NCBI GenBank assembly: GCA_016278505.1
Contig: JADQBQ010000017.1
Location: 163,357-227,356, forward strand
Reading direction: 5' to 3'
Source: Clostridiales bacterium
GTDB lineage: Bacteria > Bacillota > Desulfotomaculia > Desulfotomaculales > VENG01
DNA: 64,000 bases
Below are positions 39,948 through 56,988 of this stretch, piece by piece. Position 1 is the first letter of the stretch; the number at the start of each line of letters is the position of its first letter. The position numbers were made by a program, and so were the translations under genes. The notes beneath the pieces are model-generated. The model saw only the letters and a program-made list of their open reading frames with translations, made no database searches and was not told where the DNA came from.

Positions 39948-40238
39948 ATGCGACAGTATGAGTTAATGTATATTCTTAAATCTGACCTGGAGGAAGAAGC
40001 TGTAACATCCATCATGGAGAAATTTAAGGGTATAGTCGAACAGTACAACGGTGAAATTGTTGACTTAGACAAATGGGGCAAAAGAAGGCTCGCTTATGAG
40101 ATCGAGGACTATAAAGACGGTCTATACATCTTAATGCATTATAAAGGTACTTCTGAAATCTCCAATGAGCTCGATCGGTTACTTAAAATCAATGAATCTG
40201 TACTGCGGCATATAATTATTCGAGAAGACGAAAAATAA
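39948..40238 (+). CDS. rpsF: 30S ribosomal protein S6
   Basis: The 96-residue protein MRQYELMYILKSDLEEEA ... VDLDKWGKRRLAYEIEDYKDGLYILMHYKG is a full-length S6. It binds 16S rRNA with S18, encoded two genes downstream. AGGAGGAGGTG precedes the ATG. Confidence 0.97.
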   Translation: MRQYELMYILKSDLEEEAVTSIMEKFKGIVEQYNGEIVDLDKWGKRRLAYEIEDYKDGLYILMHYKGTSEISNELDRLLKINESVLRHIIIREDEK

Positions 40239-40306
40239 GACAAGCTGCCAACCGAAATCAGAGAGAGAATTTTTTTGGGGATAGAATTCTAAAGGCGGTG
40301 AAATAT

Positions 40307-40753
40307 TTGTTTAACCGGGTAATATTAATCGGTCGCCTTACCCAAGATCCGGAATTAAGACATACCAGCAGTGGAGTGCCGGTGGCTAGTTTTGCGCTGG
40401 CAGTTGAGCGTGGCTTTACCAACAACCAGGGCGAACAGGAAGTTGATTTTATTAATATTGTGGCCTGGCGTAAACTGGGAGAAACCTGTGCCAATTATAT
40501 TTCCAAAGGCAGCCTTGTTGCCGTAGAGGGTAGACTCCAAATACGGTCCTATGATGATAGTCAGGGTGTTCGCCGTAAAGCATCTGAAGTTGTTGTCAGC
40601 AGAGTTAAATTTCTTGATAGTAAAAAAGACTCAGCCCAGTCAAAAGGGTCTGTAAATTCGGGTGGTCCATCCGGTCCGGAAAAAGATAATTCCAATGACT
40701 TTGGCGATTTCGGCAGTGAGATAAGTTTTAATCAGGATGACGTTCCGTTTTAA
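40307..40753 (+). CDS. ssb: Single-stranded DNA-binding protein
   Basis: The 148-residue protein begins MFNRVILIGRLTQDPELR and has the OB fold (residues 1-105). A flexible Ser/Gly/Asn-rich tail ends in DDVPF, the acidic partner-recruiting tip. TTG 40307 lies four bases after GGCGGTGAAATA; a GTG at 40298 would overlap that site. Confidence 0.96.
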   Translation: MFNRVILIGRLTQDPELRHTSSGVPVASFALAVERGFTNNQGEQEVDFINIVAWRKLGETCANYISKGSLVAVEGRLQIRSYDDSQGVRRKASEVVVSRVKFLDSKKDSAQSKGSVNSGGPSGPEKDNSNDFGDFGSEISFNQDDVPF

Positions 40754-40765
40754 GGAGGGTTAATA

Positions 40766-40996
40766 GTGAGACGTGACAGAGGACGCCGTGGTAAGAAGCG
40801 TGTATGCAACTTCTGTGTGGATAAAGTAGAAGCTGTTGATTATAAAGACGTTTCTCGCCTTAAAAAGTTTGTTACAGAGCGCGGAAAAATTCTTCCGCGT
40901 AGAATATCCGGTAATTGCGCACGCCACCAGCGTATGCTTACCAGATCAATAAAAAGGGCTAGAAATATGGCTTTGTTACCGTTTAGTATTGAATAG
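40766..40996 (+). CDS. rpsR: 30S ribosomal protein S18
   Basis: The 76-residue protein begins [20 protein letters not shown] and contains [35 protein letters not shown]. It keeps the cysteines of a zinc-binding S18 variant (CNFC and C50). GTG start, AAGGAGGG upstream. Confidence 0.97.
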
Positions 40997-41017
40997 TATT
41001 AAGCGGGGTTAATGACA

Positions 41018-41048
41018 AACCTTGCTTTTGCGCATAGCGAATGAATTA
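41018..41048. repeat. Half copy of the dispersed MITE/REP-like repeat
   Basis: Only the left end (AACCTTGCTTTTGCGC ATAGCGAATGAATT) remains. It lies between the rpsR stop and its terminator, 7 bp before the hairpin. Confidence 0.7.
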
Positions 41049-41055
41049 CAACACG

Positions 41056-41083
41056 GGGAACGCTTTAGGGCGTTCCCTTTTTT
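41056..41083 (+). terminator. Terminator of rpsF-ssb-rpsR
   Basis: GGGAACGC-TTTAGG-GCGTTCCC then six T. Confidence 0.92.
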
Positions 41084-41171
41084 AAAGCTAACCATGCAGG
41101 AAATGCCGGTGCTCTTGCCGAAACAATATGGAGTTTATATACAATTTTACCATGAAGAAGGAGGCCTTTTT

Positions 41172-41489
41172 ATGTTTCCGGCTGATCAAAAACCCGGAAT
41201 AGCTAAGAATATTAAGGTTATTGAATGGCTCAAGGCTGATCTTATGGCCTCTACATCTTCCTTGTTCAAAGCGATGCTTAGCGGCAGTGAAGAAAAACTC
41301 CTTGATGCGCTGGCCAGTATGGTGTTAACTTGTTATGTGTTAGGTAAAAGGCTGGGTATAAATTTTTCTCGCCTGGACTTAAGGGTGGAAGCAAAATTGA
41401 GGCAAGGTATTGACGATGATCATGAAGTGGAAAAATGGTATAAAGACCTTTCCAGTTTGCTGAAATATTTTATTGACAAAAAGAGGTGA
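41172..41489 (+). CDS. MazG-like helical protein
   Basis: The 105-residue protein from ATG 41172 (GAAGGAGG upstream) is all-helical: IAKNIKVIEWLKADLMASTSSLFKAML, then SEEKLLDALASMVLTCYVLGKRLGINFSRLD and DDDHEVEKWYKDLSSLLKYF. This arrangement resembles the MazG-like proteins found beside rpsR and DUF2232 genes in related Clostridia. The MazG-type acidic metal-binding motif is not complete, so nucleotide pyrophosphatase activity is doubtful. The longer upstream frame overlaps the rpsR terminator. Confidence 0.65.
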   Translation: MFPADQKPGIAKNIKVIEWLKADLMASTSSLFKAMLSGSEEKLLDALASMVLTCYVLGKRLGINFSRLDLRVEAKLRQGIDDDHEVEKWYKDLSSLLKYFIDKKR

Positions 41490-41493
41490 TTTT

Positions 41494-42450
41494 TTGCAGT
41501 TGGGTACAGGTAACCCTGCCTGGAGGGAATTTTTTTGGTTGACGCTGGCAGAGGTAATGTTAGCCCTTTTAGCCTTATACGTACCTGTATTGCAGTTGGT
41601 GGCAACACTACTTTTCCCGCTGCCGGTTGCGTTGATGGTACGCAGGCATCACCTTGCCATAGCCTTATGGACCCTGTTCGTGGTAATAATTGTAGCACTT
41701 TTGGTTTTTGGCAATACATTTGCAGTGCTTTCTTTTGTTTTACAGGCCGGGGTAATTGGAATCGTTATGGGTCTTTTATTCAAAAACTCTGTTTCTTCCG
41801 GCAGGAGCTTAAAAATATTAGTTATTCTTTCGATAGTTATTGTTTTATTGATGTTAGTCTTTGCCTACATGGTAAATGGCACTAATCCCTTTGATATAGA
41901 TAAAAAAATCTTTGGTGATTTGGACCAAATCAACCAGTGGTATCAAGACACCGGTGTATTAAGCGCTGAAGAGGAACAATTGGTTAGGCAGCAGATCCAA
42001 AGTGCAATAGACCTTATGATTTCGCTTATACCGGGAAGTTTGTTGATCTGGGCTGTTATACAGACCTTTGTCAGTTATCTGTTAGCCCGTAAAATTTTTT
42101 ATCGTTTAGGTTATAAAGTTCAGGCCATGCGTACTTTTACCGAGTGGCAATACCCTTGGTATGTAATTTGGGGCTTGATTACTGGTCTGGTATTGCTTCT
42201 CGCAGGTGATGAGTGGAATTTGATATCACTGAGTGATGTTGGAAAAAACTTTTTATATGTTATGTCTTTTTTCATCATGGTACTGGGGATTTCCGTTTTT
42301 ACCCACTTTATAAAAAAATGGAAAATATCCGGTTTTATAAAAGGCATTATTATTTTCATTGTGTTCCTTTACTGGCCGCTGGGAATTGGTTTAATATTAA
42401 TCTTAGGGTTGTTGGATCCTGTGTTGAATTTGCGACAATTAAATAAATAA
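41494..42450 (+). CDS. DUF2232 (YybS-like) membrane protein
   Basis: The ~318-residue protein has about eight membrane helices and the final motif IGLILILGLLDPVLNLRQ typical of YybS-like DUF2232 proteins, which lie before rplI-dnaB as here. Function unknown. TTG 41494 with GAGGTG upstream is preferred; the ORF could extend to 41473, overlapping the previous gene. Confidence 0.85.
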   Translation: MQLGTGNPAWREFFWLTLAEVMLALLALYVPVLQLVATLLFPLPVALMVRRHHLAIALWTLFVVIIVALLVFGNTFAVLSFVLQAGVIGIVMGLLFKNSVSSGRSLKILVILSIVIVLLMLVFAYMVNGTNPFDIDKKIFGDLDQINQWYQDTGVLSAEEEQLVRQQIQSAIDLMISLIPGSLLIWAVIQTFVSYLLARKIFYRLGYKVQAMRTFTEWQYPWYVIWGLITGLVLLLAGDEWNLISLSDVGKNFLYVMSFFIMVLGISVFTHFIKKWKISGFIKGIIIFIVFLYWPLGIGLILILGLLDPVLNLRQLNK

Positions 42451-42468
42451 ACAAGGGGGTGTATTACC

Positions 42469-42915
42469 GTGAAGGTAATACTGCTGCAGGATGTGAAAAA
42501 ATTAGGTCAGAAAGATGATATTGTAAATGTTGCTGACGGACATGCTCATAACTATTTGATACCGAAAGGCCTTGCTGTCGAGGCCAATAAAGGAAAATTG
42601 ACGGAAATAAAAAAGCAAAAAGACAGGAAATTGGAAATGCAGGAACAAGAGGAAAAGAAGGCTAAAGATTTAGCGGAAAAGCTCAAGCAGGTTAAAGTAA
42701 CTATCCCGGTTAAGGTAGGGGACGCGGGAAAGTTGTTTGGAGCAGTCAGTAATAAAGATATAGCACAGTTATTAAATCAACAGCACAAAATTAACCTGGA
42801 TAAAAAGAAAGTCGTTCTTAAAGACCCCATTAAGACCCTTGGCACTTACCAGGTTACGGTAAAACTGCATCCTAAAGTACATACAAAGCTGGATGTGGAG
42901 GTTGTGGGAGAATAG
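42469..42915 (+). CDS. rplI: 50S ribosomal protein L9
   Basis: The 148-residue protein has the N-terminal domain (KVILLQDVKKLGQKDDIVNVADGHAHNYLIPKG), the long connecting helix and the C-terminal rRNA-binding domain. GTG start after AAGGGGGTG. It is joined to dnaB without a gap. Confidence 0.97.
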   Translation: MKVILLQDVKKLGQKDDIVNVADGHAHNYLIPKGLAVEANKGKLTEIKKQKDRKLEMQEQEEKKAKDLAEKLKQVKVTIPVKVGDAGKLFGAVSNKDIAQLLNQQHKINLDKKKVVLKDPIKTLGTYQVTVKLHPKVHTKLDVEVVGE

Positions 42916-44250
42916 GTGAATGACATGTTAGAAAAAATTCCGCCCCATAGTATTGACGCAGAGCAATCGGTACTGGGTGCAATATTAATAGATAAACAGT
43001 CAATAAATGAAGTGACTAAATTCCTTCAGCCGGAGGATTTTTATCTCCAATCTCACAAAACTATATTTGAAGCCATGTTAGATTTGGACGAAGCCGCGGA
43101 GCCGCTGGACTTGCTTACAGTAACAGAACATCTAAGGAAAAAAGGTGATCTGGATAAAATCGGTGGGGCGGCATATGTTGCTTCTCTTACTAATGTGGTA
43201 CCCACGGCTGCCCATATAGAGTATTATGGCCGCATGGTGGAAGAAAGCGCTCTGCTGCGAAATTTAATTCAGCTGGCTACACGTATTTCTACCAAGGGTT
43301 ATCAAGGTGAGGAAGATGCTGAGCGCCTAATGCTGGAAGCTGAGCGCATGCTGGCGGAATTGGGAAATAAAAGAGCCTCCGCCGTGTTTGCATCGCTGCG
43401 GGAAATCATTGTCAGCAGTCTGCAAAATTTACAGTATATATATGAGCATAAAGGTGAAATAACGGGTGTACCCACAGGATTTAAGGATTTGGACAAAATG
43501 TGTTCCGGCCTTCAGTCCGGGGATTTAATCATTGTGGCGGCGAGGCCTTCCATGGGTAAAACCAGCCTGGGTATGCAGGTTGCCTTTCAGGCGGCCCAAG
43601 GGCTGCAAAAAGGAGTAGCGGTTTTCAGCCTGGAAATGTCTAAAGAACAGCTGGTCCAACGTATGCTATGTTCCGAGGCAGGGGTGGATCTGCACAAACT
43701 GCGTTCAGGTGGCCTCAATGAGGATGACTGGGGCATACTGATGAATAAAAGCCGGGAAATGGCCAAGATACCTCTTTACATAGATGACTCAGCAGTTTTG
43801 AGTGTAAGGCAGATTAAAGCGAAAGCGCGGAGATTGCAGGCTGAAAAAGGTATTTGTCTGATTGTTATTGATTACCTGCAATTGATGCACAGCGGCGGCA
43901 GGGTGGAAAACAGGCAGCAGGAAATAGCGGAGATATCCCGCTCCTTGAAGGGCCTGGCCAAGGAGATGAACGTACCGGTAATGGCACTGGCCCAGTTGAG
44001 CCGATCAGTGGAGCAGCGTCAGGATAAGAAGCCAATTATGTCAGACTTGAGGGAAAGCGGGAGCTTAGAGCAGGATGCCGATGTGGTAATGTTTATTTAT
44101 CGTGACGACTACTACAACCTTGAATCTGAAAAAAAAGGGATTGCTGAAATAATTGTGGGTAAGCAGCGTAACGGGCCGGTAGGAATAGCAGAGCTGGCTT
44201 TTGTCAAAGAATATACCAAGTTCTTAAACCTTTCTAAGCGGGAGGAATAA
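42916..44250 (+). CDS. dnaB: Replicative DNA helicase DnaB
   Basis: The 444-residue hexameric helicase has the N-terminal domain (PPHSIDAEQSVLGAILID) and the RecA-like core with Walker A (ARPSMGKTSLGMQVA). It also shows H1a (SLEMSKEQLVQRML), Walker B (LIVIDYLQLM) and LSRSVEQRQDKKPIMSDLRESGSLEQDAD. It is called DnaC in Bacillus. No intein. The GTG start directly follows the rplI stop codon. Confidence 0.97.
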   Translation: MNDMLEKIPPHSIDAEQSVLGAILIDKQSINEVTKFLQPEDFYLQSHKTIFEAMLDLDEAAEPLDLLTVTEHLRKKGDLDKIGGAAYVASLTNVVPTAAHIEYYGRMVEESALLRNLIQLATRISTKGYQGEEDAERLMLEAERMLAELGNKRASAVFASLREIIVSSLQNLQYIYEHKGEITGVPTGFKDLDKMCSGLQSGDLIIVAARPSMGKTSLGMQVAFQAAQGLQKGVAVFSLEMSKEQLVQRMLCSEAGVDLHKLRSGGLNEDDWGILMNKSREMAKIPLYIDDSAVLSVRQIKAKARRLQAEKGICLIVIDYLQLMHSGGRVENRQQEIAEISRSLKGLAKEMNVPVMALAQLSRSVEQRQDKKPIMSDLRESGSLEQDADVVMFIYRDDYYNLESEKKGIAEIIVGKQRNGPVGIAELAFVKEYTKFLNLSKREE

Positions 44251-44298
44251 GTTAGTAATTGGCAGTTTTCTATATACAAAATATTACAGTCCCTGATC

Positions 44299-44327
44299 TT
44301 GACAATTTACCAGGGGTTTGATATTAT
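44299..44327 (+). promoter_or_regulatory. SigA-type promoter downstream of dnaB
   Basis: TTGACA (44299-44304), 17-bp spacer, TATTAT (44322-44327). It drives transcription into the 430-bp region before purA. Confidence 0.75.
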
Positions 44328-44406
44328 GCACTTGTTGTCACAATAGGTTAATTCTGTTTCAGGTGGAAAGGAGTATTTTAAAATTATAGTAAATATAACT
44401 GGTTGA

Positions 44407-44450
44407 CTAACTCAAATAGTACTCGAGGGTTCTGTTTGAGTTATTTTTAT
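44407..44450 (+). terminator. Hairpin with T-run in the purA upstream region
   Basis: AACTCAAA ... TTTGAGTT followed by ATTTTTAT. With the promoter at 44299 it would define a transcript of about 110 nt, a possible leader attenuator or small RNA. Confidence 0.5.
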
Positions 44451-44635
44451 GGGGATTGCATAATAACAACAAAGCTTAATAACACTGTATGCAAATGTTG
44501 TTAATATGAAGCATTAACCCGGGTTTTTTTACGAGGCTAAGTTTATATATTATGCTAAGGCTTTTAACGATAGGGTGTGCACTTTTAGTTGAATCCTAAA
44601 GTAAAGTAGTCATGAAAAATGCGGAAGTTAAGTAG

Positions 44636-44755
44636 CAATCTAGAAACATAAATAAAAACCTATTTGCAGCCGGAGACGGTGTAGGGGTGACCAGGGGACT
44701 GGCTCAAGCATCTGTCCCGGTATTAGCCGCCCGGGAAATTCTTGCGAGATTCTAA
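44636..44755 (+). pseudogene. Remnant of an FAD-dependent dehydrogenase (COG2509-like) C-terminus
   Basis: Directly before purA the plus strand encodes NLFAAGDGVGVTRGLAQAS followed by VPVLAAREILARF and a stop. This is the conserved last FAD-binding segment of a family of FAD-dependent dehydrogenases (GDGAGxTRGLxQA). Only about 33 codons remain; the frame is closed upstream by TAG at 44633-44635 and no further homologous sequence is visible. The protein type is recognised by motif, the decay is inferred. Confidence 0.7.
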
Positions 44756-46051
<1,296 letters not shown>

Positions 46052-46064
46052 GTTCAGATTTCCT

Positions 46065-46112
46065 TAGCCTGGCCTGCGAGATGAAATGAATGAGTGGGCG
46101 CAAAAGACAGGG
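46065..46112. repeat. Right-half copy of the dispersed MITE/REP-like repeat
   Basis: TTAGCCTGGCCTG (also at 8314-8326 inside the long copy) is joined to CGAGATGAAATGAATGAGTGG and GCGCAAAAGACAGG. This looks like an internal deletion of the long form. It lies between the purA stop and its terminator. Confidence 0.65.
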
Positions 46113-46130
46113 GGATTATGCAACAACCCA

Positions 46131-46162
46131 GGGGCATTTGCTATAAGCAAATGCCCCTTTTT
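46131..46162 (+). terminator. Terminator of purA
   Basis: GGGGCATTTGC-TATAA-GCAAATGCCCC then TTTTT. Confidence 0.93.
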
Positions 46163-46237
46163 ATATACAATATTTGCACGTAGTTTTACACGAGCTTGTG
46201 AGAAAGAAAAATAATTTTTACTTGTAGAACTTTGTTG

Positions 46238-46266
46238 TTGACTGTTGAAGTGATTTATTGTAAGAT
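46238..46266 (+). promoter_or_regulatory. SigA-type promoter of the tRNA pair
   Basis: TTGACT (46238-46243), 17-bp spacer, TAAGAT (46261-46266), 46 bp before tRNA-Lys. Confidence 0.75.
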
Positions 46267-46311
46267 ATAAAATCGTAAGGCGTAAATAAACGCTTACAGA
46301 CTAAGTGATGC

Positions 46312-46388
46312 GGGCCATTAGCTCAGTTGGCTAGAGCACCTGACTTTTAATCAGGGTGTCCCAGGTTCGAGTCCTGGATGGCTCACCA
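46312..46388 (+). tRNA. tRNA-Lys (TTT)
   Basis: Cloverleaf GGGCCATTAGCTCAGTTGG; the anticodon loop CTTTTAA gives TTT; T-loop GGTTCGAGTCC; CCA encoded. UUU at the wobble position is a substrate of MnmE/MnmG encoded upstream. Confidence 0.95.
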
Positions 46389-46391
46389 TAC

Positions 46392-46467
46392 GGCCCCATG
46401 GTCAAGCGGTTTAAGACACCGCCCTTTCACGGCGGTAACCCGGGTTCGAATCCCGGTGGGGTCACCA
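46392..46467 (+). tRNA. tRNA-Glu (TTC)
   Basis: Cloverleaf GGCCCCATGGTCAAGCGG; the anticodon loop CTTTCAC gives TTC; CCA encoded. Three bases after tRNA-Lys, so co-transcribed. Confidence 0.95.
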
Positions 46468-46469
46468 GT

Positions 46470-46505
46470 AAAAAGACTCTGCCTTTTCAGGCAGGGTCTT
46501 TTTAT
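46470..46505 (+). terminator. Terminator of the tRNA-Lys/Glu unit
   Basis: AAAAGACTCTGCC-TTTTCA-GGCAGGGTCTTTTT. Confidence 0.9.
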
Positions 46506-46627
46506 GTCTTATAGATTGTCTGACAATTAATATATAACATTTTGCCCCCTTGTTTTTGCCCGTTCACCGTTTTTTTGCTGCATCATAAGGCGGAAAATAG
46601 TAGTATAGAATAAAGGGGGCTGAGAAT

Positions 46628-47143
46628 ATGGTTGACACCTGTTATATACTTAAAGCTATGGTAGAGGTAGTGCAAAGGGTGTCTTCTAGCTTTCGCGGCC
46701 ATAACCTGAAGATTGTTTACCAAGTAAAAAATGAAAGTAAAAATATGGAGCAGGATATACGAATCATTGCCGTTAACCAGCAGGCTAATCACCTTGAAGA
46801 GGCCAGACAGAGTATGGAGCAATTGCTGGACGCTTTGGAATATAAGATTGTTAACGGTATTTTGTTCAGTGACAAGGCATTGCAAGAGATGACCTTTTTA
46901 TTTGAGGGGTTATCCGGTCACTTGGTTAATACCAAAGACTGGTTAATTACCGGAAACAAGTTGTTGCAGGAACAGGTGAAAAAAGACTCCCATACATATG
47001 CTATTCACTGCCAAGATTTTGCTACAATGCATGAGGAAAGGTTAATTGCAGGAGTTTGTATGGCACAATCTTCGGGTATCTATTTAAATATGCTGGACGG
47101 TGTGCGGGGATTATTTTATAATACCGGTCTGTTGGTGGGCTAG
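46628..47143 (+). CDS. Hypothetical helical protein (171 aa)
   Basis: I do not recognise this protein. It has no signal peptide or membrane helix. Long helices are predicted by eye, including a coiled-coil-like segment (residues ~50-85, NQQANHLEEARQSMEQLLDALEY). It ends in a hydrophobic stretch. AGGGGGCTGAGAAT precedes the ATG. It stands alone between the tRNA terminator and the SCIFF promoter; link to the ranthipeptide genes is not shown. Confidence 0.65.
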   Translation: MVDTCYILKAMVEVVQRVSSSFRGHNLKIVYQVKNESKNMEQDIRIIAVNQQANHLEEARQSMEQLLDALEYKIVNGILFSDKALQEMTFLFEGLSGHLVNTKDWLITGNKLLQEQVKKDSHTYAIHCQDFATMHEERLIAGVCMAQSSGIYLNMLDGVRGLFYNTGLLVG

Positions 47144-47168
47144 TAGCAGTGAGGTGCACAGAAATCCC

Positions 47169-47197
47169 TTGCATAATCTATGCAGTAATCTTATAAT
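47169..47197 (+). promoter_or_regulatory. SigA-type promoter of the SCIFF operon
   Basis: TTGCAT (47169-47174), 17-bp spacer, TATAAT (47192-47197), 70 bp before the SCIFF start codon. Confidence 0.8.
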
Positions 47198-47267
47198 TTT
47201 TGTAGGATAGATCATAAAGGATTTTTAATTTAATAGGCATTTAATTAAAAATTTAGGAGGGAACTAC

Positions 47268-47420
47268 TTGCCTAAGCACATTCGTACTTTAAACCCTGTT
47301 TCGTTCCAGCACCGGACGGAAAAGACCGGGTGCGGGGAATGTCAAACTTCCTGCCAATCCGCATGTAAAACTTCTTGTACTGTGGGCAACCAAGTTTGCG
47401 TAAATAAGAGCAAAAAGTAA
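47268..47420 (+). CDS. scfA: SCIFF ranthipeptide precursor (six-cysteine peptide)
   Basis: A 50-residue peptide starts at TTG 47268, seven bases behind AGGAGG. It reads MPKHIRTLNPVSFQHRTEKT and then a cysteine-rich core with six Cys (22, 25, 29, 33, 37, 44) in the pattern CGEC-x3-C-x3-C-x3-C-x6-C. This is the SCIFF (six cysteines in forty-five residues) family, near-universal in Clostridia. The maturase encoded downstream joins a Cys sulfur to a carbon of another residue to form thioether rings. The mature product's role is not established, although related peptides have been tied to quorum-like regulation in Clostridium. Confidence 0.95.
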   Translation: MPKHIRTLNPVSFQHRTEKTGCGECQTSCQSACKTSCTVGNQVCVNKSKK

Positions 47421-47430
47421 ATAAGTGCAA

Positions 47431-47473
47431 AAAAAGCCTGATCCTTAGCGGGATGAGGTCTTTTTTTGAGATG
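47431..47473 (+). terminator. Leaky hairpin between SCIFF and its maturase
   Basis: GCCTGATCC-TTAGC-GGGATGAGGT is followed by CTTTTTTT, with a second GATGAGGTCTTTTT copy just behind. The stem has a mismatch, which should let some transcripts through and favour precursor over maturase. Confidence 0.6.
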
Positions 47474-47501
47474 AGGTCTTTTTCTGTGGGGGAGGAAATT
47501 T

Positions 47502-48866
47502 ATGATTCACAGCTTTACCTTTGACGATTTAAATATTGTGTTGGATGTACACAGTGGTGCGGTTCATATCGTTGACGATGTCACCTGTAAAATATTGGAA
47601 TACTATCCGGAAGAAAGTATGAGTATAATTATGGAAATGCTGTCCCCTTTATTTGGGCACCAACAAGTAAAGGGCGCTTTGACCGAAATAGAACATCTGG
47701 TGTCTAAGGGATTACTTTTTAGTGTTGATAATGTGGGCACTGAGTATAAGTCCGTTGGCAGCCCTGTAATTAAAGCCATGTGTCTCAATTTAGCCCATGA
47801 TTGTAATTTGCGCTGTCGCTATTGTTTTGCAGGCCAGGGACCATTTGGGGGAGACCGTAGTTTAATGTCTTTTGAGGTAGGGGCAGCGGCACTTGATTTT
47901 TTAATAAAGCATTCCGGTCCCCGCGAGCACGTGGAAGTAGACTTTTTTGGCGGAGAGCCTCTTTTAAATCTTGAAGTGTTGAAAAAACTGGTTAGTGATG
48001 GTAAGGATAAGGCGGCAGGGGTTGGAAAAAAAATAAAATTCACGGTAACGACCAATGCCCTTTTACTGAATGAACAAACTGCCCGCTATCTGGTTGATGA
48101 AGGTCTTAATGTTGTGCTCAGCCTGGACGGGCGCCCGGAAGTTCATGATGCTATGCGTCCTTTCCCCTCAGGCAGTGGTAGTTACGGCATTGCCGCTGTC
48201 AATATAAAAAAGTTCATTGAAAGTTATAACTTTGATAATTATTATGTAAGAGGAACCTTTACCAGGCATAACAGAGACTTTGCTGAAGATGTATTACATA
48301 TGGCCCGATTGGGCCTGAAGCATCTTTCCATTGAACCAGTAGTTGGTGGGCCAGGCGAGGATTATTCTCTGCAGGAATCAGATATGCCGCAGATTTACTC
48401 TGAGTACGAAAAGCTAACCAGGCATTTACTGGCTTTAAAGGAAAAAGGACGTGAAATTGATTTCTTTCACTTTAACATTGACTTGGAGGGCGGTCCATGT
48501 CTTAAAAAAAGGATCTCTAACTGCGGGGCAGGCAATGAATATGTTGCCGTTACTCCCAGTGGGGAGATTTATCCATGTCATCAATTTGTTGGGCAGGAAG
48601 GTTTCCGGCTGGGGGACGTCTTCCAGGGTATTTCCAATGAAAAAGTTGTAAGGGATTTCCAGAACTCTTACATTTATAATAAGGAACAATGTCCTGAATG
48701 TTGGGCTAAGTTTTTTTGCAGCGGCGGGTGCCATGCCAATGCTTACTTTTTTAAGGGCACCATTAACAGTCCTTATGAGACAGGTTGTAAGTTAATGAAA
48801 AAGAGATTAGAGTGTGCCCTTTATTTAAAAGCGAAGGAAATGCTGGGTTGCGCTGAACAAGGATAA
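47502..48866 (+). CDS. scfB: SCIFF peptide maturase, radical SAM/SPASM protein
   Basis: The 454-residue enzyme forms thioether links in the SCIFF precursor. An N-terminal peptide-recognition region (residues 1-90) precedes the radical SAM core with CX3CX2C at Cys101, Cys105 and Cys108 (CNLRCRYC). DFFGGEPLLN and the SPASM domain with auxiliary clusters follow (SNCGAGNEYVAVTPSGEIYPCHQ, CPECWAKFFCSGGCHANAY and a late Cys in ETGCKLM). GGGGGAGG precedes the ATG. The pairing with scfA directly upstream makes the call secure. Confidence 0.95.
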   Translation: MIHSFTFDDLNIVLDVHSGAVHIVDDVTCKILEYYPEESMSIIMEMLSPLFGHQQVKGALTEIEHLVSKGLLFSVDNVGTEYKSVGSPVIKAMCLNLAHDCNLRCRYCFAGQGPFGGDRSLMSFEVGAAALDFLIKHSGPREHVEVDFFGGEPLLNLEVLKKLVSDGKDKAAGVGKKIKFTVTTNALLLNEQTARYLVDEGLNVVLSLDGRPEVHDAMRPFPSGSGSYGIAAVNIKKFIESYNFDNYYVRGTFTRHNRDFAEDVLHMARLGLKHLSIEPVVGGPGEDYSLQESDMPQIYSEYEKLTRHLLALKEKGREIDFFHFNIDLEGGPCLKKRISNCGAGNEYVAVTPSGEIYPCHQFVGQEGFRLGDVFQGISNEKVVRDFQNSYIYNKEQCPECWAKFFCSGGCHANAYFFKGTINSPYETGCKLMKKRLECALYLKAKEMLGCAEQG

Positions 48867-48897
48867 GTTGTCCACAGGTGAATAAAGGAGTGGGATT

Positions 48898-50283
48898 GTG
48901 TCTCCATCAATGGATACGGCGCAGGGTGTGTATAAAAGAGCCGGCAGTATTGTAACCGGAATTATGGGCATGGGACGCGTTTATCTCGGCGCCTCATCGG
49001 TTCTGGTTATATCTGTGTTTGCCCTTATCATTAGTCAATTTATATTTTTCACTGTTTCCATAGACGGAACTCCAACGATGCTTGTGGAAAATCGTGGTAC
49101 GGCCAAGAAAGCCATTGTACTGTTACTTGAAAAAGAGGAAAAACGCCGTGGCTATCCTGTTTATTGGCAACAAGTTATTGAAATTAACCCGGTTTGGGGT
49201 AACGATGGCAGGCGCTGCTATAAATCCGTTGAGAATGTTGCCGGGGTTCTCCGGCGAAAGCTTCAATTTGTCACTGACGGTGTTGCTGTTATGGTAAATA
49301 AGGAAGAAAAGTTATATATGCGTAATATTGAGGTTGCCAGGCAAAGCTTAGGCCTGATCAAAGATAAATTCCGCCCTCGCGGGGCGCTGAAGGTAAGCTT
49401 TGAAGAGGATGTGCAAATTGTTAATAAAACTGTTTCCGTTGAACAATTGGTGGACAGAGATAATGCCATAGGCATATTGATGACCGGTGTACAGAAAATT
49501 GAGAATTATGAGGTGGAAAAAGGAGATACCCTCTGGGGCATTGCCCGGAGGGAAGGACAAGATATAAAAGAGCTGATGGACATTAACAAGGGCGTGAAGC
49601 CTCATTTATTGCAGATTGGACAAAAAATAATGTTAAATAAGCAACAGCCTTTGCTTAATGTAATCAGCAGCTATGAAACTGTGGAACTGAAAGATGTGCC
49701 CTATACCATCGTAGAGGCCGGAAGGGACCCCAGTCTTAATTACGGGGAAGTAAAGGTTATTCAGCAGGGTGTTCCGGGCCGGATGGAGATTACTTATCGT
49801 GTGGTGGAAAGAAACGGGCAAAGAATAAAAAAATACCCGGTGCACAAGACAATTAAAAGTGATCCGCGCCCACAGGTAATAGTTACCGGTAGCGAGATGC
49901 TCATGGCGTCTCGCTCGGGAAGGACAATATATAGGCCTGTGGTAGGCACAGTTTCTTCTAATTATGGGGTGCGTGGCGGTGGTATGCACAGTGGTATTGA
50001 TTTTGCCGCCGATTACGGTAATCCGGTGGTAGCCCTGGCGGCTGGGACGGTAAAATTTGCCGGTTACCGAGGTGGTTATGGGTTAGCCGTGGATATTGAT
50101 CACGGGCAGGGAATGATAACCAGGTATGCCCATCTTTCCAAGGCTGTTGTTTCCACGGGACAAAAGGTTAAAGGCGGGCAGTTGATTGGTCGTGTGGGTG
50201 CCACGGGTAACACCACCGGGCCGCATCTACATTTAGAAGTAAGGATAAACGGGGAGACCCGGGACCCCGCAAGTTTACTCTAA
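48898..50283 (+). CDS. Membrane-anchored M23 peptidase with LysM and G5 domains
   Basis: The 461-residue protein has one N-terminal membrane helix (about 34-56) and an extracellular region (60-200). A LysM domain (about 202-247, YEVEKGDTLWGIARREGQDI) and a G5 domain (about 255-330) follow. The C-terminal M23 metallopeptidase keeps its zinc ligands: HSGIDFAADYG (His, Asp) and TGPHLHLEVR (His). It should cut peptidoglycan peptide bridges outside the membrane. Such proteins act in growth or sporulation. GTG start with AAGGAGTGG upstream. Confidence 0.92.
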   Translation: MSPSMDTAQGVYKRAGSIVTGIMGMGRVYLGASSVLVISVFALIISQFIFFTVSIDGTPTMLVENRGTAKKAIVLLLEKEEKRRGYPVYWQQVIEINPVWGNDGRRCYKSVENVAGVLRRKLQFVTDGVAVMVNKEEKLYMRNIEVARQSLGLIKDKFRPRGALKVSFEEDVQIVNKTVSVEQLVDRDNAIGILMTGVQKIENYEVEKGDTLWGIARREGQDIKELMDINKGVKPHLLQIGQKIMLNKQQPLLNVISSYETVELKDVPYTIVEAGRDPSLNYGEVKVIQQGVPGRMEITYRVVERNGQRIKKYPVHKTIKSDPRPQVIVTGSEMLMASRSGRTIYRPVVGTVSSNYGVRGGGMHSGIDFAADYGNPVVALAAGTVKFAGYRGGYGLAVDIDHGQGMITRYAHLSKAVVSTGQKVKGGQLIGRVGATGNTTGPHLHLEVRINGETRDPASLL

Positions 50284-50301
50284 AACAAAGTATCGAGGAT
50301 A

Positions 50302-50349
50302 AACCTGTCTTTTGCGCATAGAGAATGAATTGAATCGAGCAGCTGCCAA
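50302..50349. repeat. Left-half copy of the dispersed MITE/REP-like repeat
   Basis: AACCTGTCTTTTGCGC ATAGAGAATGAATTGAATCGAGCAGCTGCC matches the left part of the long copy at 8067; the right end is missing. It starts 18 bp after the M23 gene stop codon. Confidence 0.7.
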
Positions 50350-50434
50350 AGATAGGATTGGATGCCTTCCTTGCTGAATATACAGTGATATATTATACTA
50401 TATGGTATGTGAATTATAGTAAGGAAGTGATGTT

Positions 50435-51025
50435 ATGAGTTTCTTTATTAATGCAACGAAAAATCGCAAGAAGCAGAAGTTAATATTTTTGGTAACGGCT
50501 ATTTTTCTGGCGGCAGGTTTGGTAGGGTCAACTTTGATTGGTGTCTTTGGGAGCCGTCAACAAGAAAACGCCACAGCTGCCCAGACACCGCAGAGTATCA
50601 GTGAAAAGGTGGCTGAACTGGAAAATCAGGTGGAGGAAAATCCCAAAAATGCTGCTGTCTTGGCTCGCCTGGCCCAGGCCTATTACCAAAATGACCAGGT
50701 AGATAAATCCCTTGAGACTTATCAAAAGGCGCTCAATATTGATCCCGGCAACAGTGATTTTCGCACCTCCCTGGCAACAACCTATTTTTTAGAGAACCAA
50801 TTTGATAAAGCCGTGGCTGAAATGAAAAATGAGATAAAAAATAACCCGGATAATGATGAGGCTCATTATTACCTGGGGGTGTTTCTAGCCTACGGGCAGG
50901 GTAAATACAGTCAGGGTGTTGAAGAGCTCAAGGTATTTGTAAATGAAGCGGATGCAGAGGCAAACGCCGTGGAATTAGAGAAGGCAAAGCAAATGATAGA
51001 ACAAATTCAGAATATGGATAAGTAG
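50435..51025 (+). CDS. Membrane-anchored TPR protein
   Basis: The 196-residue protein has an N-terminal signal-anchor helix (about 17-38). A coiled linker (SISEKVAELENQVEENPKNAA) and about three TPR units follow (residues ~60-190, including AQAYYQNDQVDKSLETYQKALNIDPG). It is likely exposed outside the membrane and mediates protein contacts. AAGGAAGTGATGTT precedes the ATG. Specific role unknown. Confidence 0.85.
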   Translation: MSFFINATKNRKKQKLIFLVTAIFLAAGLVGSTLIGVFGSRQQENATAAQTPQSISEKVAELENQVEENPKNAAVLARLAQAYYQNDQVDKSLETYQKALNIDPGNSDFRTSLATTYFLENQFDKAVAEMKNEIKNNPDNDEAHYYLGVFLAYGQGKYSQGVEELKVFVNEADAEANAVELEKAKQMIEQIQNMDK

Positions 51026-51046
51026 TATTTTATTTAACTTTACCCA

Positions 51047-51083
51047 AAAAGAGTCAGGTTCCTTGTGATCTGGCTCTTTTTAA
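51047..51083 (+). terminator. Terminator after the TPR gene
   Basis: AAAAAGAGTCAG ... CTGGCTCTTTTT with T-run. Confidence 0.88.
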
Positions 51084-51175
51084 TTAAAAATTTTAAAAGC
51101 TTAATCATTGTATTAGTTACTAAATTAGTTGCTTAGATTAATTGCTTAGATTGATTACTTAAGGAAGGTGTACTT

Positions 51176-52081
51176 ATGCCAGAGCCAACGACTTCTTATG
51201 GTTACCGGCAGCCTGGGGAAACTCCAACCGGCCAAAGAAAATTACTACATCTTTTGGCAGTGGTGATGCTGGTTACATCTTTTATGGTGATCCGTTTTCC
51301 CGGAGGGGCGAAGGGTTTTCTGTACGTTGTATTCCGTGAAGTGGTCAAGCTGAACATGATGGTTAAAACCAGTGGTTGGAACAGCGTGGAGAGCGAATAT
51401 TTTTTGGTTCGTTATAAGCCGGGGCCCGGGAATGAGAAGAATGCAAAACTGGTCTTAAATACCGCGGAATCTTTTTTGGAGCCCATAGCGCAAAGGTATG
51501 ATTATAAAATTAAGGGCAAAATACCGGTTATTCTTTATTCTTCAAGGGAAGAGCTGAATGCCAGTTTCGGCTGGCCTGCCAGCGAAAGGGCAATGGGGGT
51601 GTACTGGGGAGGAGCCATACGCGTTCTTTCCCCCGATGAATGGATTGACTATGATAAGTTTGAAGAGAAAAAAACTATTTTCGAATCATGCGGTCCCATG
51701 GCTCACGAAATTACACACTTAGTAATTGATTACAGAACAAAGGGTAATTATCCCAGGTGGCTTACGGAAGGGCTCGCGCAGTACGAAGAATACATGCTTA
51801 CGGGATTTAGGTTTACTGACCCTGCAGGTAGCCTTGACCAAGACTTGTACCCGTTAAGTAAGATGGACAAAGAATTTGACTCGTTACCCAACCAGTCATT
51901 AGCATACCGCCAGTCCCTGTCAGCCGTGGATTACATTATGAAAGTCTACGGAAAAGAAAAAATGCATATGATTATTAATGATTTGTCTCAAGGGCGATCC
52001 GTAAATCGTTCCTTTTCAAATTCCTTGGGTGTTGATATGATTAAATTCGAACAGGAGTGGCAGCATTGGCTTTCTTTATAG
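51176..52081 (+). CDS. Membrane-anchored gluzincin peptidase (peptidase MA-like)
   Basis: The 301-residue protein has an N-terminal membrane helix (about 22-41). The zinc-peptidase motif is HEITH (residues 177-181), with the distal Glu in WLTEGLAQYEE about 18 residues later, the gluzincin arrangement of peptidase MA-like proteins. The catalytic domain is probably extracellular. Substrate unknown. GGAAGGTG precedes the ATG. Confidence 0.85.
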   Translation: MPEPTTSYGYRQPGETPTGQRKLLHLLAVVMLVTSFMVIRFPGGAKGFLYVVFREVVKLNMMVKTSGWNSVESEYFLVRYKPGPGNEKNAKLVLNTAESFLEPIAQRYDYKIKGKIPVILYSSREELNASFGWPASERAMGVYWGGAIRVLSPDEWIDYDKFEEKKTIFESCGPMAHEITHLVIDYRTKGNYPRWLTEGLAQYEEYMLTGFRFTDPAGSLDQDLYPLSKMDKEFDSLPNQSLAYRQSLSAVDYIMKVYGKEKMHMIINDLSQGRSVNRSFSNSLGVDMIKFEQEWQHWLSL

Positions 52082-52180
52082 ACTTCCATTTTTACATGCA
52101 GGATCTTATATAAAAACGTTGAATTATTAGTTTGCAGCTAGATTAATCGCGATATTTGTAGGGAGGAAAAAATAACAATT

Positions 52181-53443
52181 ATGAATAGATTGTTTGTTGC
52201 CGGAGGCAGGCCGTTAAAGGGAAAAGTTCGCGTTTCCGGTGCCAAGAATGCTTCGTTGGCACTTCTCTGCGCAGCCGCCATGTCACGGGATTCGGTAATA
52301 CTGGAAAATATTCCTGATATAAGCGATATAAATGTAATGAGTGAAATAATGAAAGAAATGGGATTTAAAACAAAACGGGAGGCAAGTGGGGCCTTAGAGA
52401 TATGTGCGCCGTTAAAGCTCAATGCGCAGCCTCCCTATCACATGGTCAAGCAGCTTCGTGCTTCCAATCTTCTATTGGGACCTCTGCTGGCGCGTTTTGG
52501 TGAGGCCGAAGTGGCCCTGCCCGGGGGATGTAATATAGGTGTGCGGCCCATGGACCTTCATTTCAAAGGCCTTTCAGGGTTAGGTGCCCAGGTGTCTATG
52601 AAACATGGTACCGTAAGTGCCAAAGCAGATAAATTGGTGGGTAACAGGATTTATCTGGACTTTCCCAGTGTAGGTGCCACAGAAAATATAATGATGGCCG
52701 CCTGTTTGGCAGAGGGACAAACAATTTTGGAAAACGTTGCTAAGGAACCGGAAATTGTTGATTTAGCCAATTTTTTAAATTGCTTGGGCGCAAAAGTGCG
52801 GGGAGCCGGCACTGACATTATTAAAATCGAAGGTGTTCAGGAACTGGGAGGCTGTTTGCGTTACCCGGTTATTCCGGATCGTATTGAAGCCGGCACGTTC
52901 ATGGTCGCCGCCGCTGCCACCGGCGGCGATGTGGAATTGGAAAACGTTATACCTCACCATATGGAGCCTATTTGCGCCAAACTGCGCGAGGCAGGAGTGG
53001 AAATAATAGAAGGTGAAGAAGCTCTAAGAGTTGTAGCCGGTGGAAAATTGAAACCCATTGATTTAAAGACCCTCCCTTATCCAGGTTTTCCCACTGATAT
53101 GCAGTCGCAGTTTATGGCCATGTTGTGTACTATTGCCGGTACCAGCGTGATTATTGAAAATATTTTTGAAAACAGGTTTCAAATAGCGGATGAATTGAAG
53201 AGGATGGGTGCAAACATAAAAGTGGAAGGGCGTATTGCCGTAATTGAAGGTGTAAATGAACTTCACGGCACCCACGTCAAAGCGACCGATCTGCGGGCCG
53301 GTGCGGCGCTGGTCATTGCCGGATTTATGGCAGAGGGGACCACTGAGATATCCAATGTTAAATATATAGACCGGGGGTACCATTTGTTGGAAGAGAAAAT
53401 GAAAACTCTTGGGGCGCAAGTATGGAGAAAAGACAGCCGGTGA
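52181..53443 (+). CDS. murA: UDP-N-acetylglucosamine 1-carboxyvinyltransferase
   Basis: MurA transfers enolpyruvate to UDP-GlcNAc, the first committed peptidoglycan step. The 420-residue protein shows PLKGKVRVSGAKNASLALL, the catalytic Cys in LPGGCNIGVRPMD (so fosfomycin-sensitive type), and GYPGFPTDMQSQFMA-like PYPGFPTDMQSQFMAML. RAGAALVIAG near the end also fits. The ribosome site GGGAGG is 14 bases before the ATG, longer than usual. Confidence 0.95.
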   Translation: MNRLFVAGGRPLKGKVRVSGAKNASLALLCAAAMSRDSVILENIPDISDINVMSEIMKEMGFKTKREASGALEICAPLKLNAQPPYHMVKQLRASNLLLGPLLARFGEAEVALPGGCNIGVRPMDLHFKGLSGLGAQVSMKHGTVSAKADKLVGNRIYLDFPSVGATENIMMAACLAEGQTILENVAKEPEIVDLANFLNCLGAKVRGAGTDIIKIEGVQELGGCLRYPVIPDRIEAGTFMVAAAATGGDVELENVIPHHMEPICAKLREAGVEIIEGEEALRVVAGGKLKPIDLKTLPYPGFPTDMQSQFMAMLCTIAGTSVIIENIFENRFQIADELKRMGANIKVEGRIAVIEGVNELHGTHVKATDLRAGAALVIAGFMAEGTTEISNVKYIDRGYHLLEEKMKTLGAQVWRKDSR

Positions 53444-53461
53444 CGGTAAAGGGGTGCTGGT

Positions 53462-53941
53462 GTGCGGGTTTCCGTTGTGGCGGTGGGTAAATTAAAGGAA
53501 AAATATCTTCTTGAAGCTCAAAGGGAGTACTTAAAGCGCCTGCGTCCTTACGCGCGCATGGAAATAACCGAGGTCGCGGACGAGAGTTGCAGTGAAAAGG
53601 ACCCGGAAAGTATACTTGAAAAAGTGAAAATTAAGGAAGGCCAAAGAATAATTAAGACCCTTAAGCCGGACAGTTTTATAATTGCCCTGGACAGGCAGGG
53701 GCAGCAAATTGATTCTGAGAGCTTGGCCCGCAAAGTAAGTGACCTCAGCCTACAAGGGAAAAGTTACATTACCTGTGTGATCGGAGGCTCTTTAGGTTTA
53801 AGCGAGCAGGTTTTGCAGCAGGCGGACTGGAAGCTTTCTTTTTCCTGCCTTACATTCCCTCACCAATTAATGCGGGTAATTCTATTGGAACAGATATACC
53901 GCTGTTTTAAAATAATCCGACATGAGCCTTACCATAAGTGA
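53462..53941 (+). CDS. rlmH: 23S rRNA (pseudouridine1915-N3)-methyltransferase RlmH
   Basis: The 159-residue SPOUT methyltransferase shows VAVGKLKEKYLLEAQREYLKRL, IALDRQGQQIDSESLA, the knot FVIGG-type loop (CVIGGSLGLSEQVL) and the end FPHQLMRVILLEQIYRCFKIIRHEPYHK. It methylates pseudouridine 1915 of 23S rRNA. GTG start after GGGGTGCTG. Confidence 0.96.
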   Translation: MRVSVVAVGKLKEKYLLEAQREYLKRLRPYARMEITEVADESCSEKDPESILEKVKIKEGQRIIKTLKPDSFIIALDRQGQQIDSESLARKVSDLSLQGKSYITCVIGGSLGLSEQVLQQADWKLSFSCLTFPHQLMRVILLEQIYRCFKIIRHEPYHK

Positions 53942-54224
53942 ATAAAGATACTGGAAGATTGTTACCATGGAACACCTATGGACTAGTTCTGAATAATTAG
54001 TTAAAATAGATGCGAGGTCATTTTTAGGACAAGTGTGTATTTTTATAATAAGATGTAAAAAAAATCACATTAATGACGGGGGCGGCTTGGCGGATTGAAA
54101 ATGTTGCCTATTTTTTGCGGACAAAAGTAAAAAAAAACGGTGCGCCGGGAGGATTTAAGCCTCAAAGTCCCGAATAGTCACATGTTTATGTTTTTTGATG
54201 CATTATTAATTATGTTTTTTCAAA

Positions 54225-54285: not shown

Positions 54286-54366
54286 ATTCAAAGGGGGTGG
54301 CGTAGGGCTGAGTAAGGAGCAAATCTTTGGCATTGAATTTATACCCAACAAAAGGAGGTATTGTTA

Positions 54367-55785
54367 GTGGCTTTTGAACCCAAAAATGAGCAAAAAGAAC
54401 TCAAGTATGAAGAGCTGCGAATTTACACTGATGAAGAACTAAATAATTACACAGAAGAAGAGCTTAAAAACTTTAAGTTCAAGCATGATGTACCCGACTT
54501 GGATGACCTGGAAAAAGGCCCGTGGCCTAGCTTTGTTTCCGATGCCAAACAAGAAGCCCTGCATAGACACAAACTCGCCGATGATAGGTTAATGACTGCT
54601 AAGGACTCTGTCGATGATTTGATGGGTGCCCTGCAGCTGTCTTTTGATGACGGTGAAACACACTGGAAGCATGGTGGTATTGTTGGTGTTTTCGGTTACG
54701 GTGGTGGCGTTATCGGTCGTTATTCCGACGTTCCTGAGAAATTCCCCGGCGTAACCCATTTCCACACTATGCGTGTTAACCAAACTTCCAGTAAGTTTTA
54801 TGACACTGATTTCCTGCGCTCCCTGGCAGACCTTTGGGAGTATCGTGGAAGTGGTATTTTGAACATGCACGGTTCTACCGGTGACATTGTTTTCTTAGGT
54901 ACTACCACTGATCAGTTAGAGCCCATTTTTTATGATTTAACTCATGAGTTGGGTGTTGACCTTGGTGGTTCAGGTTCCAACCTGCGCACACCTTCCTGCT
55001 GTGTTGGTAAGGCCCGTTGTGAGTATGCCTGTATTGACACTCAGGACCTGTGTTACGAAATGACCCAGTTCTATCAGGATGAATTGCACCGTCCCATGTT
55101 CCCTTATAAGTTCAAATTTAAGTTTGACGGCTGCCCCAATGGCTGCGTTGCATCCATTGCCCGTTCCGATATGTCCTTTATTGGAACTTGGAGAGACGAT
55201 ATTCGTATTGATCAAGAGGCAGTAAAGGCTTATATTGCCGGTGAATCTGCACCGAACGCAGGCGCACATGGCGGTAGAGACTGGGGTAAATTTGATATTC
55301 AAAAAGAAGTTATTGATCTTTGTCCTACCAATTGTATGTGTTATGAAGATGGCGAGTTAAAGATTGATAACTCTGAATGTACTCGTTGCATGCACTGTAT
55401 CAATGTAATGCCCAAGGCCCTGCGCCCTGGTAAAGATACCGGTGTTACCATTCTTTGCGGCGCCAAGGCACCTATCTTGGAAGGTGCTCAAATGGCCACT
55501 ATGATCGTTCCCTTTATGAAAGCAGAAGCGCCTTATGACAATATTAAGGAATTAATTGAGAAGGTTTGGGATTGGTGGATGGAAGAAGGTAAGAACCGTG
55601 AGCGCCTTGGTGAACTTATCCAGCGTTTCTCCTTACCTAGATTCCTTGATATTATGGAACTTCCGCCCGCACCGCAAATGGTTAAAGAACCTCGTTCCAA
55701 CCCGTATATCTTCTGGAAAGAAGAAGATGTTAAAGGCGGCTGGAATAGGGATATCAATGATTACAGGTCCAGACACAAGAGATAA
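54367..55785 (+). CDS. dsrA: Dissimilatory sulfite reductase subunit alpha
   Basis: DsrA with DsrB reduces sulfite, the terminal step of sulfate respiration. The 472-residue protein shows the siroheme-[4Fe-4S] ligands CC..C...C (Cys211, 212, 218, 222) and FDGCPNGC (Cys256, Cys260). The inserted ferredoxin domain reads CPTNCMCYEDGELKIDNSEC and continues TRCMHC. GTG 54367 is eight bases behind GGAGGT; the TTG at 54361 is too close. Basic features fit the reductive (bacterial sulfate reducer) type, since dsrD follows. Confidence 0.97.
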   Translation: MAFEPKNEQKELKYEELRIYTDEELNNYTEEELKNFKFKHDVPDLDDLEKGPWPSFVSDAKQEALHRHKLADDRLMTAKDSVDDLMGALQLSFDDGETHWKHGGIVGVFGYGGGVIGRYSDVPEKFPGVTHFHTMRVNQTSSKFYDTDFLRSLADLWEYRGSGILNMHGSTGDIVFLGTTTDQLEPIFYDLTHELGVDLGGSGSNLRTPSCCVGKARCEYACIDTQDLCYEMTQFYQDELHRPMFPYKFKFKFDGCPNGCVASIARSDMSFIGTWRDDIRIDQEAVKAYIAGESAPNAGAHGGRDWGKFDIQKEVIDLCPTNCMCYEDGELKIDNSECTRCMHCINVMPKALRPGKDTGVTILCGAKAPILEGAQMATMIVPFMKAEAPYDNIKELIEKVWDWWMEEGKNRERLGELIQRFSLPRFLDIMELPPAPQMVKEPRSNPYIFWKEEDVKGGWNRDINDYRSRHKR

Positions 55786-55800
55786 GGAGGTTAGAAAGTA

Positions 55801-56988
55801 ATGGCATTATCCACAGGTAAACTTGGTAGTTATAATCCAGATAAACCACAAGAGGGTAGGGAAACTGACCTTGGTCCACGTCATTTTTGGCAGTATTTCC
55901 CGCCTGTGATTCAGAACAACTATGGTAAATGGGCTTATCATGACATTCTTGAGCCAGGGATCATAGTTCACGTTTCTGAGACCGGGGATAAAGTGTTCAC
56001 CGTAAGATGCGGCGGAGCACGGTTTATGAGTTCAGAACTGATTCGGGAAGTCTGTGAAGTTGCAGACAAGCATTGTGACGGCTATGTTCGTTTCACCACC
56101 CGTAATAATATTGAATTTATGACAGATAGCAGTGACAAATTGGAAAACCTCAAGCAGGATCTTCAGAGCCGTAAGTTTGTTAGCGGCAGTTACAAGTTCC
56201 CCATTGGCGGAACCGGTGCCGGTGTAACCAACATCGTTCATACTCAGGGTTACATTCACTGCCATACTCCGGCTACTGATGCTTCTTCCATGGTTAAGGC
56301 TGTAATGGACGAGGTCTTTGGCCACTTTACCGGTATGGAACTGCCGGCTAAGGTCAGAATCTCCATGGCATGCTGCCTGAACATGTGCGGAGCTGTTCAC
56401 TGTTCGGATATCGCCTTGTTGGGTTATCACAGAAAGCCGCCTATCGTTGACCACGAAGTGATCGATGCTATCTGTGAAATCCCGCTTGCTGTATCCTCCT
56501 GTCCTGTAGGTGCAATTTCGCCTGCTAAGACCGAGGACGGCAAGAAGACCGTTAAAATTAAAGACGAGCGCTGCATGTTCTGTGGTAACTGTTATACCAT
56601 GTGCCCGGCACTGCCTCTTTCCGATAAAGAAGGTGACGGTGTAACTATCCTGGCCGGAGGTAAGCTTTCCAACAGGATCAGCATGCCCAAGTTCTCTAAA
56701 GTGGTTGTACCCTGGGTTCCCAACAACTTCCCCAGATTCCCCGAAGTTGTGGAGAACGTGAAGAAGATCTTGAACGCTTATGCTAACGATGCTAACAAAT
56801 ATGAGCGTCTTGGTGACTGGGCTGAGCGTATTGGCTGGGAGAAATACTTCGAGAAGTGCGATATTCCGTTTACGGAGCACCTCATTGATGACTATCGCCT
56901 GGCTTACGATACTTTCCGCACCAGCACTCAGTTCAAGTTTACCCAAGCTGCATGGGATGTATCAAAAGCAGCAGGTGGGATAGAATAA
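55801..56988 (+). CDS. dsrB: Dissimilatory sulfite reductase subunit beta
   Basis: The 395-residue beta subunit contains the active siroheme site in the DsrAB heterotetramer. Visible motifs are [35 protein letters not shown], the cluster ligands in [15 protein letters not shown] and VSSCPVGAI, and the ferredoxin ligands [12 protein letters not shown]. It follows dsrA by 15 bp with AAGGAGG as ribosome site. Confidence 0.97.

Follow-up and report, generated by a model that had tools for sequence, protein, structure and literature searches.

The closest described systems are CteA/CteB of C. thermocellum and Tte1186a/Tte1186 of Caldanaerobacter subterraneus. In both precursors a thioether runs from the fourth cysteine to a threonine, a bond that has been reassigned from an alpha to a C-gamma link, and the maturase CteB holds the leader on its N-terminal RRE domain (PMC8326336); the acceptor residue in CteA is itself disputed. 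SCIFF genes are easily missed, yet the family model TIGR03973 recognises them readily (PMC5300114). A role for SCIFF in quorum sensing and sporulation of C. beijerinckii has been reviewed (PMC8102284), and signalling roles are known only from distant Clostridium species.

The locus described here lies in a 64,000-nucleotide stretch of contig JADQBQ010000017.1 from a Clostridiales bacterium (hereafter the window, whose positions serve as coordinates throughout). Its genes, scfA and scfB, encode members of the same precursor and maturase families as CteA and CteB. Compared with CteA, the leader and tail residues of ScfA differ and the gene starts with TTG; in the present locus, 81 nt lie between the two genes and include a hairpin whose sequence is conserved. 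The core threonines of Tte1186a, also a SCIFF peptide, occur in ScfA too. PapB (NF047865), the maturase of freyrasin, is likewise a radical SAM/SPASM enzyme making non-alpha thioethers; ScfB scores 254.5 bits with its model, below the cut-off of 340, and freyrasin links Cys to Asp (PMC8326336), whereas the ScfA core has Thr, without Asp.

The precursor and maturase genes

A preliminary description of this DNA had claimed a complete SCIFF unit, in which a 50-codon, TTG-start gene for a six-cysteine precursor adjoins a radical SAM/SPASM maturase gene, and had named the family models for both products. Both open reading frames are present exactly as described, and both models match above their curated cut-offs, supporting the proposed unit. 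The features of the locus are as follows:

47169–47197, plus strand: likely sigma-A promoter of scfA, TTGCAT-17 nt-TATAAT (read directly; −10 box 6/6, −35 box 3/6)
47255–47261, plus strand: ribosome-binding site AGGAGGG, about 6 nt before the TTG start of scfA (read directly)
47268–47420, plus strand: scfA, SCIFF precursor, 50 aa, TTG start, six cysteines (TIGR03973 and PF13165 matches)
47431–47470, plus strand: terminator-like hairpin and T-run, CCTGATCC-loop-GGATGAGG-T tract (folding, relatives, covariation)
47451–47484, plus strand: 3′ arm of the hairpin and T-run, repeated once in tandem, GATGAGGTCTTTTT, 18-nt period (read directly)
47502–48866, plus strand: scfB, SCIFF maturase, radical SAM/SPASM, 454 aa (TIGR03974, Pfam and 5wgg matches)

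The ScfA peptide (MPKHIRTLNPVSFQHRTEKTGCGECQTSCQSACKTSCTVGNQVCVNKSKK) has its cysteines at residues 22, 25, 29, 33, 37 and 44 of 50, showing the SCIFF trait of six cysteines within about 45 residues. TIGR03973 was its sole NCBIfam match, at 80.4 bits against a cut-off of 50 (E 6.6e-23), and the Pfam SCIFF family PF13165 matched at 81.0 bits against a cut-off of 27. A PDB match to epoxyqueuosine reductase (E 0.016) was rejected as a weak chance match of a cysteine-rich sequence.

The second SCIFF trait, a position next to the maturase, is also seen, as scfA lies 81 nt upstream of scfB, an ATG-initiated frame of 454 codons whose product has TIGR03974 as its best NCBIfam match (593.8 bits, cut-off 425, E 2e-178). 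These family-model matches of the two products are far beyond chance. Pfam placed Radical_SAM, Fer4_12 and SPASM domains in ScfB. The nearest solved structure, PDB 5wgg/5why (E 9e-153), aligns over residues 1–447; its database title is ‘Radical SAM domain protein’, and we take it to be CteB of C. thermocellum. All cluster-region cysteines are common to both proteins, comprising the CxxxCxxC motif (Cys101/105/108) and, in the SPASM region, the cysteines at 333, 341, 359, 397, 400, 406, 410, 429 and 438. The N-terminal part of ScfB aligns with the RRE-bearing part of CteB, and Pfam gave no RRE domain model match.

It could be argued that ScfB is instead an ScfB-related orphan enzyme with another target (NF040492, ‘not_ScfB’), and that the small open reading frame beside it is a coincidence or a remnant, since NF040492 matches ScfB over its whole length. 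That match reaches 521.2 bits, short of a cut-off of 855, whereas TIGR03974 passes its own; the adjoining frame encodes a full-length SCIFF peptide with all six cysteines; and in an earlier survey, 234 of 234 radical SAM genes less than 500 bp from a SCIFF gene scored well above the TIGR03974 cut-off (PMC5300114), making the orphan assignment extremely improbable. We put the probability that 47268–47420 and 47502–48866 are a SCIFF precursor/maturase pair at about 0.95. The pair is a complete, standard and ordinary SCIFF ranthipeptide locus, belonging to a system that is already known.

Start codon and promoter of scfA

The TTG of scfA is the only ATG, GTG or TTG start upstream of the core in an open frame of 63 codons. 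At the homologous place in 89 distinct related loci the start codon was TTG in 39, ATG in 39 and GTG in 7, and from this spread and the distribution of the gene in relatives, neither the TTG start nor the small size is peculiar to the present genome.

The same preliminary description had given scfA a strong promoter of its own. A promoter is likely, with a perfect −10 box on the plus strand and enrichment in relatives, while its strength is unproven, the −35 box matching at only three of six positions. The site at 47169–47197 was absent from the results of a consensus promoter scan of the window, and within the window alone promoter-like sites were no commoner than in shuffles. When the 180-nt stretches preceding scfA in the 89 related loci were taken together, 31 sites matched at 10 of 12 positions against 2.4 expected, and the mean promoter-like score was 8.9 compared with 7.6 in shuffles, the control being a rough one, a shuffle by dinucleotide blocks. 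It is because of this enrichment that we consider a sigma-A promoter upstream of scfA likely.

The hairpin between scfA and scfB

Within the gap between the genes lies a hairpin of about 39 nt followed by a T-run, and the folding energy of the entire gap is −24.6 kcal/mol (z −2.25). The tandem repeat of the 3′ arm was noticed in none of the relatives' gaps that were read. A search of 47100–47560 against Rfam returned no family above its gathering threshold; the best match, Thr_leader (15.9 bits against a threshold of 55), was rejected as far too low and as reflecting a generic form of A-tract, stem and T-tract.

The arm pattern recurs shortly 3′ of scfA in 67 of the 89 related loci. The commonest arms, CCTGATCC and GGATGAGG, were found in 23 loci with their G–G mismatch kept, and the next commonest pairs (CCTTGTCC/GGATAAGG, CCTTGTCC/GGACGAGG, CCCGATCC/GGATTGGG and CCCGGTCC/GGATTGGG) complete a set whose members are compensatory or wobble variants of each other. 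To test for covariation, 43 hairpins were aligned with MAFFT by sequence alone; in this alignment 96.3% of cells were paired and six of ten pairs had changed on both sides, pairing counts that lean upward because the set was chosen by an arm pattern allowing limited variation. Double-changed cells numbered 32 compared with 11 in shuffles, the covariation score was reached by 0 of 500 shuffles, and sliding the partner arm by 1–3 columns abolished the signal.

The strict pattern has one match in the present genome, at the scfA locus, and in relatives nearly all full CCTGATCCC/GGGATGAGG matches sit at scfA. The second-best hairpin match in the genome (ACCCTGTACC...GGTACAGGGTTTTTT, contig C26) proved on reading to be an ordinary terminator and was set aside. 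As a control, every hairpin-like stretch in 40000–54000 was scored for recurrence of its arms in 20 relatives, and the scfA hairpin region held the two best non-coding stretches, ahead of tRNA stems. The hairpin at 47431–47470 scores 46.8 bits (R1), and the covariance model finds it outside the order in sister families (L120, L123, L126, L127, L129, L133, L134, L141 and L147).

On balance, we favour the view that this hairpin is a leaky terminator, owing to which more ScfA than ScfB would be made. At several loci the T-run abuts the ribosome-binding site of scfB (in L006, for example, the gap is 51 nt), leaving no room for a promoter between them. Expression of scfB there must therefore depend either on read-through or on a promoter located 5′ of the hairpin; such a promoter for scfB could lie inside scfA.

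How much the conserved sequence adds to this is a separate matter. There is an even chance that the hairpin is a plain intrinsic terminator, with a sequence kept by descent and ending most scfA transcripts as its sole role, as its stem and T-run have that form, the covariance model also matches ordinary terminators at low score, and most loci in the rest of the phylum, outside the order, have a hairpin of unrelated sequence at the same place. This account has to accommodate arms that are conserved in many families to a degree that, elsewhere in the region, only coding sequence and tRNA stems attain, as well as a G–G stem mismatch retained at all loci with the commonest arms, which is unexpected under free drift. 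Such conservation suggests something beyond termination. A more speculative proposal, which we think would probably turn out wrong, makes the hairpin a regulatory RNA element of a kind not yet described, one that acts through its specific sequence to fix or shift the precursor:maturase ratio of the SCIFF system across the order and some sister families; a protein, a nuclease or the peptide circuit itself would then act at this site. We found no paper in the open-access literature that describes a terminator of this kind between the genes of a SCIFF locus.

Distribution, neighbourhood and possible role

The present genome has a single SCIFF gene. Across the class, 103 of 113 genomes, all belonging to the same order, carry one copy each, representing 52 of 55 genera; a SCIFF gene was likewise found in 246 of 299 genomes sampled across the phylum, and in 0 of 14 control genomes. 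As the gene is near-universal in the order, a SCIFF pair is to be expected here. In a separate observation, one relative (genome G031; locus L101, and contig C140) gave two SCIFF matches, one of them short and confined to the core.

The pair is flanked by purA, tRNAs and an M23 peptidase gene. The order dnaB-purA-scfA-scfB-M23 peptidase-TPR protein-peptidase-like protein-murA-rlmH is wholly or largely kept in most of the 14-kb regions from relatives, the names other than M23 being assigned from sequence. The LysM-G5-M23 peptidase gene directly 3′ of scfB (48898–50283) occupies this position in most of the order, as well as in several outside families, an M23 gene following scfB within a few kb at L161, L168, L170–L173 and L175. 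Judged by gene order, this neighbourhood is conserved synteny, from which we draw no functional link. Upstream, a 171-aa open reading frame precedes scfA (46628–47143); it matches no NCBIfam model, nor any Pfam model above cut-off, and relatives, including a genome of the same family (L033), showed no counterpart at the same place. Farther along the window, two adjoining frames at 54361–56988 resemble, as judged from the sequence, dissimilatory sulfite reductase subunits, and if they are such, the organism would be a sulfate or sulfite reducer.

By comparison with the known systems, transcription of scfA would start at a promoter of its own, and translation from the TTG would yield a precursor of 50 aa with a leader motif, KHIRTLN, that would bind the predicted N-terminal RRE domain of ScfB. 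The radical SAM cluster of ScfB would then generate a 5′-deoxyadenosyl radical, which would abstract hydrogen from a threonine in the core; a non-alpha thioether would form between this threonine and the sulfur of Cys33, the fourth cysteine. Alignment with Cys32 and Thr34/Thr37 of CteA, from which this cross-link chemistry is predicted, points to Thr35 or Thr38 as the acceptor. The hairpin would end most transcripts after scfA, so that precursor would be made in excess of enzyme, and a read-through minority would express scfB.

The mature peptide may serve the organism's own regulation as a signal and not be an antibiotic, a role for which we see roughly balanced odds. An antimicrobial, bacteriocin-like product might be considered because related radical SAM products, the sactipeptides, are often antimicrobial, as is generally known (see also PMC8326336). 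The core is, however, near-universal, single-copy and strongly conserved across the class, and the open reading frame list and Pfam revealed no recognisable transporter or export, leader-cleaving protease or immunity gene next to scfA-scfB; PMC8326336 argues likewise from distribution, and we regard an antimicrobial function as very unlikely. A single copy in nearly every genome of the order is easier to reconcile with a housekeeping signal than with an antibiotic.

The locus adds one member to a SCIFF family that is near-universal in these bacteria. If borne out, the conserved hairpin would allow the peptide gene and the gene of its modifying enzyme to share a promoter and yet differ in the amount of product made. 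Debate continues over what the peptide does biologically, and the conservation of the hairpin sequence may point to a regulator of this peptide.
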